Shown here in pieces: positions 36,272-48,848 of a stretch of 64,000 bases of DNA. Source of the DNA: Noviluteimonas gilva. GTDB taxonomy: Bacteria; Pseudomonadota; Gammaproteobacteria; Xanthomonadales; Xanthomonadaceae. The stretch spans positions 434,001 through 498,000 of the forward strand of contig NZ_WOXT01000002.1 of the NCBI RefSeq assembly GCF_009740395.1, given 5' to 3'. How positions within the stretch are numbered: position 1 is the first letter of the stretch; each line of letters begins with the position of its first letter. Position numbers and translations under genes: made by a program. The notes under the pieces were generated by a model. It saw only the letters and a list, made by a program, of their open reading frames with translations, made no database searches and had not been told where the DNA came from.

Positions 36272-36991
36272 ATGCGCCGGTTCGTGCAGTCGTTTTCCGA
36301 AGAGAGTCTCCCGCGCGGCGTGCCTGCCGCGCTGGTCGCAGCGCTTGCCGCGTGCCCGGATCGCTTCAACATCGCGGTGCGCAAACCCGCAGCGGTGATC
36401 CTTGATCGCGGTGAGGGCCTCGTCGTCGAAGATTTCGACTGGGGCCTGATCCCGAGTTGGTCGAAGTTGCCCGAGACGAAATACACGACGGTGACCGCGC
36501 GCCTGGACCGCGCACCGCGCAGCCGGATCTTCAAGCGCCCGTGGGAGCAGCGACGCTGCGTCGTGCCCTTGAATGGCTATTACAAGTGGGATCGCAGCGT
36601 TTCGCCGCCGCAGCCGTACTTCATCCAGTCGCAGGCGGGGCAGGTGTTGTTCGCGGCAGGCTTGTGGGATCACTGGCACCGCGAGGAGCCGCACGTGTTT
36701 TCGTTCTCGGTACTGACCGCGGGCAATGCGGCGATTCCGGCGCCGTTGGTGCCGGATGGGCCGGTGTTCGTGGAATCGGCGAAGATCGCCGACTGGATCG
36801 AAGGGCCGTGGTTCCCGCAACGTTTCCTTGCGCGCATGCCGCAGCCTGCGCTCGAGGCGTATCCGGTGTCGCGCCGCATCCGCTCACGCGACGAAGACGA
36901 CTACACCCTCCTGGATCCCGTGGATCCGCAGGAGGATGCAGTCGCCACCGTGGGCTTCGGCGATGTCGCCGACGATGAAGACGACGCGTGA
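36272..36991 (+). CDS. SRAP (YedK/HMCES) homologue lacking active-site residues
   Basis: A 239-aa protein with the SRAP fold: RFNIAVRKPAAVIL, WGLIPSWSK, the RRCVVPLNGYYKW strand and the C-terminal YPVSRRIRS. Genuine SRAP proteins crosslink abasic sites in ssDNA through the N-terminal Cys2 (MCGRF), with Asn in the INAR motif, Glu in the F/W-E-W motif and His in the IHDRMP motif. Here these positions are MRRF (no Cys), TVTAR (Thr), YYKW (Lys) and IPAPL (no His), so all four are gone. The fold should still bind DNA but not crosslink. The start at 36272 was chosen because it aligns with the family start. Confidence 0.85.
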   Translation: MRRFVQSFSEESLPRGVPAALVAALAACPDRFNIAVRKPAAVILDRGEGLVVEDFDWGLIPSWSKLPETKYTTVTARLDRAPRSRIFKRPWEQRRCVVPLNGYYKWDRSVSPPQPYFIQSQAGQVLFAAGLWDHWHREEPHVFSFSVLTAGNAAIPAPLVPDGPVFVESAKIADWIEGPWFPQRFLARMPQPALEAYPVSRRIRSRDEDDYTLLDPVDPQEDAVATVGFGDVADDEDDA

Positions 36992-36994
36992 GCG

Positions 36995-38203
36995 TCAGTA
37001 CTGCTGCAGGCCCAGCACCGACTGCAACACGCTGGTCAGGATGACCGCGATGTTGTCATTACCGTCGTTGCTGTCGTACATGTCGCGATCGCCGTAGTAG
37101 GTGCCGTAGCGATAGTCGTTGCCGTACGAATCCTGATAACCGCGACGGAAGCCTTCTCGGAAGTAGTAGTTGTACTCGCTGCGGTCGACGTAATAGCCGT
37201 TGTAGCCGTAGCTCGCATCCTGGTAGGCGTAGTTGTTGCGCCAGTCGCTGCGCCAGTTGTCGCGGCGGTCGGCGATGCCGGCGCGCACGCCCATTTCATA
37301 GCCCTGGCGGACGGCCTGTCGCAGCATGTCGGCCTGGTAACGGTTGGCGTCGTAGTAGCGGCCATCGCGGGCGTAGCGATACGACACCGGCGCGTAGAAG
37401 TACGGATCGCGCGAATAGCTCGGCGCCGACCAACGCTGCTGCTGCGCGAGCTGCTGCTGCCAGTACCAGCGCTGGTACGCGTACTGCTGCGCACGACGCT
37501 GCGCCTGCAGCGCCGCGATGCGGTTCTGCTCGGCGACGCGGCGCGAGGCCATGTAGTTGCGATAGTCCAGTTCACGCTGGCGCTGCAGCTGGATCATGCG
37601 CTGGCGCTGGGCTTCGGTGACGCGGCGCTGTTGATCGGCCGCGCGATGCGCCTGTCGGCGATCGGCGTCGCGCTGGAGATCCGCACGACGCTGCGCGTCG
37701 CGACGGGCGTCGGCCTGGCGACGTTGCGCCTCGTTGCGGGCTTCGGCGTGGCGGCGTGCTTCGGCCTGGCGGCGCGCGTCGTTCTGACGGTGCGCATCGG
37801 CCTGGCGGCGCTCGGCATCGCGACGTACGTCGGCCTGGCGACGCTCCGCATCGCGATGCTGCGCCTGCTGGCGCTGCGCGGCTTCACGACGCTGCTGCGA
37901 CTGCTGGCGTTCCTGCGCCTGGCGATGCTCCGCCTGTTCGCGCTGGCGTTCCATGCGGCGCTCCGACTGCTCGCGCTGCTGCGACTGGCGGCGCTCGTTG
38001 TCGGCGCGATGCTGCGCTTCCTGGTGCGGGCGCTGCGGGGCCTGCGCCTGCTTCTTCGCCGGCGCCTGCGCCTGCTTCTTCGCCTTCTCGTTGTCCTGTT
38101 GGTGTTTGTCGTTCTGGCGCGCCGACGCATCGGGCGCAACGAGGCCGCCGGCAAGGACGAGGCCGATGGCACCTGCGAGAATCGCACTGCGATGGAAACG
38201 CAT
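36995..38203 (-). CDS. Secreted Q/R-rich coiled-coil protein
   Basis: A 402-aa exported protein. Signal peptide ends near residue 28 (DASA/RQN). Residues about 30-250 are a long, arginine/glutamine/alanine-rich charged helix (units such as RRQADARRDAQRR repeat), and residues about 260-400 are rich in Y, R, N, D and G (YYDANRYQADML, GYNGYYVDRSEY). Heptads suggest a coiled coil; the tail resembles adhesive or matrix-binding tyrosine-rich sequence. No known domain. Divergent from the antiporter gene. Confidence 0.7.
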   Translation of the reverse strand: MRFHRSAILAGAIGLVLAGGLVAPDASARQNDKHQQDNEKAKKQAQAPAKKQAQAPQRPHQEAQHRADNERRQSQQREQSERRMERQREQAEHRQAQERQQSQQRREAAQRQQAQHRDAERRQADVRRDAERRQADAHRQNDARRQAEARRHAEARNEAQRRQADARRDAQRRADLQRDADRRQAHRAADQQRRVTEAQRQRMIQLQRQRELDYRNYMASRRVAEQNRIAALQAQRRAQQYAYQRWYWQQQLAQQQRWSAPSYSRDPYFYAPVSYRYARDGRYYDANRYQADMLRQAVRQGYEMGVRAGIADRRDNWRSDWRNNYAYQDASYGYNGYYVDRSEYNYYFREGFRRGYQDSYGNDYRYGTYYGDRDMYDSNDGNDNIAVILTSVLQSVLGLQQY

Positions 38204-48013: not shown

Positions 48014-48848
48014 ACGCCTTTCGCTTCGCCACTTTTTTCGCAGCCTTCTTCGCCCCGATCTCCACCCACGTCGGCGCGTGATCGCTCGCGCCCTTCAAGT
48101 CCCGCACCCAGCGATCCACGCCGGCGGCTTTCAATCGCGGCGCGAGGTCATCGCTCAACAGCAGATGATCGATCCGCAACCCCGCGTTGCGCGGCCAGTG
48201 GTTCCGGAAGTAATCCCAGAACGTGAAGATCTTCTCCTCCGGATGCAGCGTGCGCAGCGCATCGGTCCAACCTTGCGCAAGCAGCGCTTCGTAGCGCTCG
48301 CGAGTCTCCGGTTGCAGCAGCGCATCCTTGCGCCAGTGCGTCGGATCGTAGATGTCCAGCGCGTCGGTGGGCACCACGTTGTAATCGCCCGCCAGGACCA
48401 CGGGATGCTTGCTGTCGAACAAGGTTTGCGCGTGTTCGATGAAGCGATCGAACCACTGCAACTTGTAATCGAACTTCGGGCCCGGCCGCGGATTGCCATT
48501 GGGCAGATACAGGCAACCGACGATGACGCCGTGCGCGGCCGCTTCGAGATAGCGGCTCTGCGTGTCGTCGCGCATGCCGGGCAGGCCGCGGCGGCTCTCG
48601 ATGGGATCGCCGCCGCGCGCGAGGATGGCCACGCCGTTCCAGGACGGTTGGCCCATCCACAGCGCGCCGTAGCCCGCGTCGCGGATGGCCTCGATCGGAA
48701 AGCCCGCGTCGGCGGCCTTCAGTTCCTGCAGGCACGCGATGTCCGGCGCTTCCTTCTCCAGCCACTGCAGCAAGTGCGGCAAGCGCGAGCGGATGCCGTT
48801 GACATTGAACGTCGCGATGCGAAGGGATGCGTCCTTGCCTGCCGCCAT
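48012..48848 (-). CDS. xthA: Exodeoxyribonuclease III (XthA family)
   Basis: A 278-aa AP endonuclease/exonuclease of the EEP fold. Motifs: ATFNVNGIRSR near 11-21, CLQELKAAD (metal Glu), GDYNVVPTDALD and the final SDHAPTWVE with the catalytic Asp-His. It repairs abasic and oxidised DNA ends. Start MAAGKDASLR at 48848 overlaps the stop of the upstream gene (ATGA), so both are translated from one mRNA. A lysine-rich C-terminal tail (KKAAKKVAKRKA) is added. Confidence 0.9.
   Translation of the reverse strand: MAAGKDASLRIATFNVNGIRSRLPHLLQWLEKEAPDIACLQELKAADAGFPIEAIRDAGYGALWMGQPSWNGVAILARGGDPIESRRGLPGMRDDTQSRYLEAAAHGVIVGCLYLPNGNPRPGPKFDYKLQWFDRFIEHAQTLFDSKHPVVLAGDYNVVPTDALDIYDPTHWRKDALLQPETRERYEALLAQGWTDALRTLHPEEKIFTFWDYFRNHWPRNAGLRIDHLLLSDDLAPRLKAAGVDRWVRDLKGASDHAPTWVEIGAKKAAKKVAKRKA

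Follow-up and report, generated by a model that had tools for sequence, protein, structure and literature searches.

The closest described systems to the protein analysed here are Escherichia coli YedK (6NUA, 6NUH, 6KCQ, 8D2M) and the SRAP domain of human HMCES (5KO9, 6OEB). In the parts of the 2022 YedK paper on which we draw (PMC9436759), Cys2 is called invariant and the crosslink requires it, Glu105 is both essential and the most important of the other residues, and mutations of the active site reduce crosslinking without disrupting DNA binding; HMCES has the same catalytic set. With Cys2 changed to alanine, YedK retains the alpha-amine only and yields a trappable Schiff base together with AP lyase activity, the latter being 25-fold slower when E105Q is added (PMC9436759). 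Section 6 of PMC3765255 describes SRAP with an absolutely conserved Cys2, and passages of the same paper propose two pocket arginines, one of them R180 of 1zn6, as DNA contacts, and give umuDC, imuAB-dnaE2, dinB and ku/ligase as SOS- or repair-linked neighbours of SRAP genes. In what we saw of the open-access literature, to which our search was for the most part confined, we found no description of a natural SRAP without Cys2.

The locus considered below lies in a stretch of 64,000 nucleotides from Noviluteimonas gilva (contig NZ_WOXT01000002.1, positions 434,001 to 498,000), which we call the window and whose first letter is position 1.

The SRAP-B gene and its predicted structure

The open reading frame at 36272-36991 on the plus strand runs from ATG to TGA and encodes a 239-residue protein that we name SRAP-B. 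Two features describe its overall layout:

36272-36991, plus strand: SRAP-B gene, 239 amino acids plus stop, with AGGA 7 bases 5' of the ATG
36920-36988, plus strand: acidic C-terminal tail, residues 217-239, present in 48/48 proteins, with low pLDDT at 230-239

A previous sequence-only reading had recognised this gene as an SRAP/YedK homologue by its fold, and that assignment is borne out. In a profile search the protein matches the Pfam SRAP family PF02586 at 132.7 bits (cut-off 27.1), and its sequence also matches the solved chains of YedK, HMCES and BT_1218. An AlphaFold2 model built from 24 rows of the clade (mean pLDDT 91.7) superposes on YedK 6nuh with Z 24.2 and an rmsd of 2.8 over 213 residues, and Foldseek returns E 1.3e-15 for the model against 8d2m. 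The whole SRAP fold is shared with YedK (Z about 24, 23% identity) and the same fold with the HMCES domain (Z about 23). SRAP-B is securely placed in the SRAP superfamily.

We considered whether a hidden upstream start might restore the canonical MCGRF and rejected this. No such in-frame start was found in the window, which reads SLIRRTLAWRRHAAGEDRR 5' of the ATG, and in the relatives L039 and L041 the frame is closed by a stop codon 3 and 2 codons 5' of the ATG, respectively. Among 48 distinct SRAP-B proteins the start codon is ATG in 46, GTG in one and CTG in one.

In all 48 proteins the part after LLEP spans 18-27 amino acids with a net charge of -7 to -13; these counts come from full-length rows and supersede earlier ones made on rows cut at 239 amino acids. 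The first 215 residues carry a mean net charge of +3.1 in SRAP-B, against +0.2 in the canonical rows.

Distribution and selection

In the window's family, 56 of 395 sampled genomes have an SRAP-B match at E 1e-40 or better; among the better-quality genomes the figure is 54/352, with 13 of 54 genera represented. We read 48 distinct SRAP-B proteins, from 46 of the 56 carrier genomes plus two named loci. The frames of 47 carriers were read, 46 being intact and one (G279) having a stop, with the remaining nine left out. The G279 copy (L139, G279:C1:479627-480307) is interrupted at residue 32 by an in-frame TAA, and thus decay does sometimes remove the gene.

All 48 proteins share R2, R3, T75, K105, D162, the lack of His160 and the acidic tail. 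The search pattern required [MLV]RRF[VA]Q[AS], so that members with other N termini would be missed; the 37 rows taken by identity alone, without the pattern, also all carry RRF after the first residue. Forty-five of the 48 passed an additional TARL filter into the tree and the column comparison (L057, L136 and L138 were excluded). The canonical set of 67 rows was drawn with a pattern that fixed [MVL]C[GA]R and EW and admitted either N or S at position 75. Its invariance at Cys2 and Glu105 therefore follows from the selection itself, while that at positions 160, 162 and 40 does not. In a tree of the 45 SRAP-B and 67 other SRAP rows, the two sets fall on the two sides of one branch with an SH-aLRT of 100. 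The branch lengths either side of the midpoint root are 0.96 and 0.33; the tree is a quick, midpoint-rooted one that shows two groups and not which is older. The question raised by the sequence-only reading, whether the replacements are conserved as a group, can therefore be answered affirmatively: they define one clade and recur in 48/48 distinct proteins.

The clade appears confined to the family in the samples searched. Among 398 genomes of the order, no SRAP-B was found outside the family: three non-family genomes exceeded the threshold and the best reached 169 bits, against at least 303 bits for SRAP-B members, and four non-SRAP-B loci of this search carry MCGR. Among 369 genomes of the class, none was found outside the family and the best match was 153 bits; the N terminus is [MV]CGR in the 22 of 28 class loci at which it was read, with L102 (cut), L100, L101, L105, L111 and L122 outside that count. 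One exception, L126 (G625:C176), keeps MCGR but has Lys for Glu105 (FYKW) and two in-frame stops, and is a broken copy. A mobile origin was considered and rejected: no plasmid or phage record matches SRAP-B at 60% identity or more, and the hits below that level are other SRAPs.

SRAP-B has a patchy distribution within the family. It is found in 9/20 genomes of one other genus, and of the five genomes of the window's genus (the window's own included) it is missing from G002 only, where the exchanger gene that neighbours it elsewhere and the neighbour of that gene remain, with no trace of SRAP-B.

Nei-Gojobori dN/dS values for the window gene against three members of the same genus are 0.084, 0.156 and 0.151, compared with 0.098, 0.168 and 0.187 for three same-genus pairs of the canonical paralogue. 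Four more distant SRAP-B pairs give 0.155-0.294, estimates that are unsure at their dS of about 1 or above. By these ratios purifying selection on SRAP-B within the genus is strong, and neutral decay, the other condition under which the sequence-only reading would have been abandoned, was rejected on the low dN/dS together with the invariance of the replacement residues.

Lost, replaced and retained active-site residues

The positions discussed here (YedK numbering) lie in the window as follows:

36272-36283, plus strand: N terminus Met-Arg-Arg-Phe, with Met1 in place of the crosslinking Cys2; R2 and R3 in 48/48
36494-36496, plus strand: Thr75 for Asn75, 48/48, all four ACN codons used
36500-36502, plus strand: Arg77, the pocket-edge arginine, kept in 45/45 SRAP-B and 67/67 canonical rows
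36584-36586, plus strand: Lys105 for the key catalytic Glu105, 48/48 (AAG 23, AAA 25)
36725-36763, plus strand: rebuilt catalytic-His loop, motif NxAIPxPLxxDGP, with invariant columns in 24 rows
36749-36757, plus strand: Val160-Pro161-Asp162, His160 lost and Arg162 reversed to Asp; D162 in 48/48

The window protein has T75, K105, V160 and D162 and no Cys2, in agreement with what had been read from the sequence for the Asn, Glu and His positions. The same holds across the clade. Cysteine at position 2 occurs in 0/48 (the search pattern itself required RRF), T75 and K105 occur together in 48/48, and position 160 is occupied by V, T, S or W and never by H. Of the two pocket arginines, Arg77 is present and Arg162 is Asp in all SRAP-B read. 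Because the N-terminal cysteine is absent, it is near certain from the published work on YedK (parts of PMC9436759) that SRAP-B would be unable to form the thiazolidine crosslink.

The loss of Cys2 had been described as a substitution by Arg. The loss stands, but the substitution does not. Aligning MCGRF with M-RRF requires a one-residue deletion, and in the structural alignment residue 1 of the SRAP-B model falls on residue 2 of the SRAP chains in 14/15 rows. As a control, a model of the canonical paralogue (pLDDT 92.3) places its residue 2 on residue 2, likewise in 14/15 SRAP rows; the odd row in both alignments is 2icu. Because residue 1 aligns on 2 in the one model and 2 on 2 in the other, Met1, not Arg2, is predicted to stand at the Cys2 position, with Cys2 deleted rather than replaced. 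By the usual aminopeptidase rule, Met before Arg stays on.

It had also been claimed that every active-site residue is replaced. Cys2, Asn75, Glu105 and His160 are indeed gone, but the claim overlooked the change of Arg162 to Asp and the loss of Pro40, and Arg77 is kept. In the column comparison, the canonical-conserved positions gone in all 45 SRAP-B rows are Cys2, Pro40 (now K in 18, V in 14, S in 6 and others in 7), Asn75, Glu105, His160 and Arg162, the last being Asp in 45/45. Kept in 45/45 are Arg4, Asn37, Trp61, Gly62, Pro65, Trp67, Arg77, Gly102, Thr149, Pro164 and Trp175, and Trp106 is retained in 43 of 45; Arg4, Arg77, Trp61, Trp67, Thr149 and Pro164 are all found in YedK, whose Arg4 corresponds to Arg3 of SRAP-B. 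Around the lost histidine the loop has been rebuilt, with N152, A154, I155, P156, P158, L159, D162, G163 and P164 invariant in 24 clade rows, and the SRAP-B model lacks the short helix (157-160) that comes before this His in the canonical model.

R2, R3, T75, R77, K105, D162 and G163 each occur in 48/48 proteins. Because synonymous codons are mixed (CGN or AGA for Arg2, and as listed above for Thr75 and Lys105), the replacement residues are, on codon evidence, held at the protein level. By the published descriptions of the sites (parts of PMC9436759 and PMC3765255), Glu105 to Lys and Arg162 to Asp both lie within a single pocket or on its rim, the mapping of Arg162 onto YedK being our own, from R180 of 1zn6. 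We infer that Lys105 and Asp162 may touch each other.

Canonical and other SRAP types in the family

The sequence-only reading had proposed looking for a canonical YedK elsewhere in the genome, and one is present (G000:C3:16195-16824, 202.7 bits, starting MCGRF). It belongs to the same superfamily as SRAP-B, with 27% identity over the matched part, but it has MCGRF with the N, E and H residues in place. It lies close to a LigD gene, which fits the Ku/ligase context given in section 6 of PMC3765255. In 24 of the 56 carriers (counted by eye, and including G223, which is 76% complete) SRAP-B is the sole PF02586 match, and because of this SRAP-B is not just a modulator of a canonical partner.

Other arrangements and types were seen in the family. 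In three genomes of one genus (L157 and the matches of G200 and G184), SRAP-B and canonical SRAP are about 13-15 kb apart. A canonical subgroup (L069, L073, L076, L077, L078, L081) has MCARY for MCGRF, that is, Gly3 to Ala. A third SRAP type (L093-L096, in G377, G021, G128 and G136) is 315-335 amino acids long and starts MCYSA; like SRAP-B, these proteins are divergent SRAP paralogues, their own PF02586 matches being weak at about 70-90 bits, but unlike SRAP-B the four read keep Cys2, YNAR, FYE and GHDR and have a coiled-coil-like insert.

Gene neighbourhood

In the window SRAP-B is flanked on one side by an Rce1-like protease and on the other by an Na/H exchanger, which we take to be KefB-like, with two genes without a Pfam match; none of these neighbours is a repair gene, and umuDC, imuAB-dnaE2, dinB and ku/ligase are absent from among those scanned. 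This gene order is at least partly kept in the three further genomes of the genus that carry SRAP-B. The minus-strand gene at 36995-38203 encodes a Gln/Arg-rich and then Tyr-rich protein with no Pfam match; it adjoins SRAP-B in the genus and is still at that place in G002. Across 26 SRAP-B loci, ORF clustering found no neighbour common to all. In a scan of 76 flanking frames (of 87) at 19 loci (of 20, L172 having yielded no frame), none of the published SOS or repair kinds appears among the 25 of 34 Pfam families listed. SOS control was considered too: in 26 upstream regions, three LexA-type patterns come no closer than in shuffled ones, and such boxes are not enriched.

One association did emerge. 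Exonuclease III trims 3' ends, and a gene for it lies directly beside SRAP-B, divergently and about 120-310 bases from the SRAP-B start, in three of the 48 members, each of a different genus (G410, G152 and G163; the SRAP-B locus of G163 encodes the same protein as that of Pseudoxanthomonas gei). Each of the 48 had at least 1 kb of upstream sequence, and in 45 no exonuclease III is directly adjacent. The linked copy of G410 scores 223 bits against TIGR00195 (cut-off 182.6). GGDEF is as frequent as exonuclease III in the flanks, at 3 of 76 frames. A rough estimate gives about 0.1 adjacent pairs expected by chance in 48 members against the three seen, assuming three copies to a genome and some 2.4 kb in which a neighbour could lie, for a link that was noticed post hoc.

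All 12 genomes examined, the window's included, have three exonuclease III genes (loci L185, L188 and L190 belong here beside the window copy), and in the five genomes placed in a tree these fall into three paralogue types, one each. The linked gene is the same one of the three paralogue groups each time (support 84/81), and this group also holds an unlinked copy from G063 and the copy in the window:

48057-48824, minus strand: exonuclease III paralogue (TIGR00195; G000:C2:482057-482824), 11 kb from SRAP-B

In the window's genus the distance between SRAP-B and an exonuclease III gene is 11-12 kb in G000, G001 and G003; in G004 it comes to about 14 kb, provided that the one contig of that genome is circular. 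The copies of G001, G003 and G004 were assigned to the same paralogue by place and not by tree. In 4 of the 11 SRAP-B genomes whose exonuclease III genes were located (G063, G217, G331 and G122) none is near SRAP-B, and three of the 11 were picked because they are linked. A functional link between the window copy and SRAP-B is possible, and the adjacency in three genera is a hint of a role in repair. In G063, of a fourth genus, a gene for an AlkB-type 2OG-Fe(II) oxygenase (PF13532, 67.5 bits) lies 3' of SRAP-B on the same strand, about 110 bases past it by the likely ATG, with a hairpin-like stretch between them, as judged by eye.

Discussion

Taking the evidence together, we consider SRAP-B to be, with rather more confidence than doubt, a neofunctionalised pseudoenzyme whose most likely activity would be to bind single-stranded DNA without crosslinking. 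The fold is close to that of YedK, the replacement set is invariant with mixed codons on a fully supported branch, dN/dS is low and the groove residues are kept, and active-site mutants of YedK still bind DNA (as described in parts of PMC9436759). Of the carriers, 24/56 have no other SRAP, and repair genes adjoin SRAP-B in a few genera (exonuclease III in 3/48 members, the AlkB-type gene in a fourth genus). The conserved replacement set in one clade, the purifying selection and the canonical SRAP elsewhere in the genome uphold the sequence-only proposal of a retained function other than thiazolidine crosslinking.

On this account, an early change in the Lysobacteraceae/Xanthomonadaceae would have removed Cys2 and replaced the acid-base residues, and a new set (Met1 at the Cys2 position, Thr75, Lys105, Asp162, the rebuilt His loop and the acidic tail) would have been held since. 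The kept side of the groove, with Arg4, Arg77, Trp67 and Thr149, would bind single-stranded DNA, perhaps where it is abasic or nicked, while Met1, Lys105 and Asp162 would occupy the lesion pocket. The retention of Arg4, Arg77 and Trp67 and the adjacent exonuclease III in three genera make DNA binding plausible; that it is non-covalent and that Lys105 contacts Asp162 are guesses. We would guess too that the acidic tail either competes with DNA for the groove or docks a partner, and that SRAP-B acts alongside enzymes such as exonuclease III. Several points weigh against the DNA-binding pseudoenzyme. Arg162, a proposed DNA contact (in the relevant part of PMC3765255), is Asp, which counts against an unchanged DNA groove, and Pro40 is lost; 45 of 48 members have no adjacent exonuclease III, SRAP-B in the window has no repair gene next to it and there is no enrichment of LexA-type boxes; and a protein or small ligand could be bound equally well.

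A bolder alternative, which we regard as unlikely, is that SRAP-B is still an enzyme of abasic sites that works by an amine alone, with Lys105 (together with Asp162) or the alpha-amine of Met1 forming a Schiff base. It would then act as a lyase or form a transient crosslink, not a stable thiazolidine, and exonuclease III could clean the 3' end. Lys/Asp pairs operate in bifunctional glycosylases (Nth/OGG1), K105 and D162 are invariant, Met1 is predicted at the Cys2 position, and exonuclease III adjoins the gene in three genera. The residue that the lysine displaces is the very one in contact with the crosslinked AP site, and YedK C2A (8D2M), which like SRAP-B has an N-terminal amine without the Cys thiol, has Schiff base and lyase activity (parts of PMC9436759). 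However, that variant is engineered and, unlike SRAP-B, keeps Glu105 and His160; the 25-fold effect of E105Q on its lyase (PMC9436759, same parts) implies that the alpha-amine route should be less effective once Glu105 is gone, His160, a helper in opening the sugar ring, is also missing, and the side chain of a Met that stays on may obstruct the pocket. Were this alternative true, a suicide crosslinker would have become a turnover AP lyase within one fold, with a dedicated exonuclease III paralogue completing the break.

The charge reversals at 105 and 162, the loss of Pro40 and the rebuilt loop with its new invariant residues would also fit a pocket that had been retasked to a different ligand or to a partner protein, with nucleic acid no longer bound, and the acidic tail in all members read and the lack of repair genes beside SRAP-B in the window are consistent with this. 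Retention of Arg4, Arg77, Trp67 and Thr149 in 45/45, the positive charge of the first 215 residues relative to canonical rows and the exonuclease III link in three genera nevertheless argue against it, and we hold it to be improbable. The presence of a canonical SRAP in the same genome is what would allow SRAP-B to be its antagonist or competitor, a role that had been suggested from the sequence; as a general role this is disfavoured, since in 24 of the 56 carriers PF02586 matches nothing but SRAP-B, and we give it very little credence. That SRAP-B is a decaying pseudogene, as its absence from one same-genus genome and from 11/20 genomes of one other genus and the in-frame stop of the G279 copy might suggest, is scarcely believable given dN/dS of 0.08-0.16 in the genus, replacement residues that are invariant with mixed codons and a frame open in 46/47 genomes read.

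SRAP-B thus differs from YedK in having no Cys2, in N75T, E105K and R162D, in the loss of H160 and P40 and in its acidic tail. A natural clade that has long been kept without Cys2 and with two charge reversals in its pocket offers a ready-made test of SRAP functions other than crosslinking, and names such as SRAP peptidase or crosslinking protein would mislead when given to such genes.
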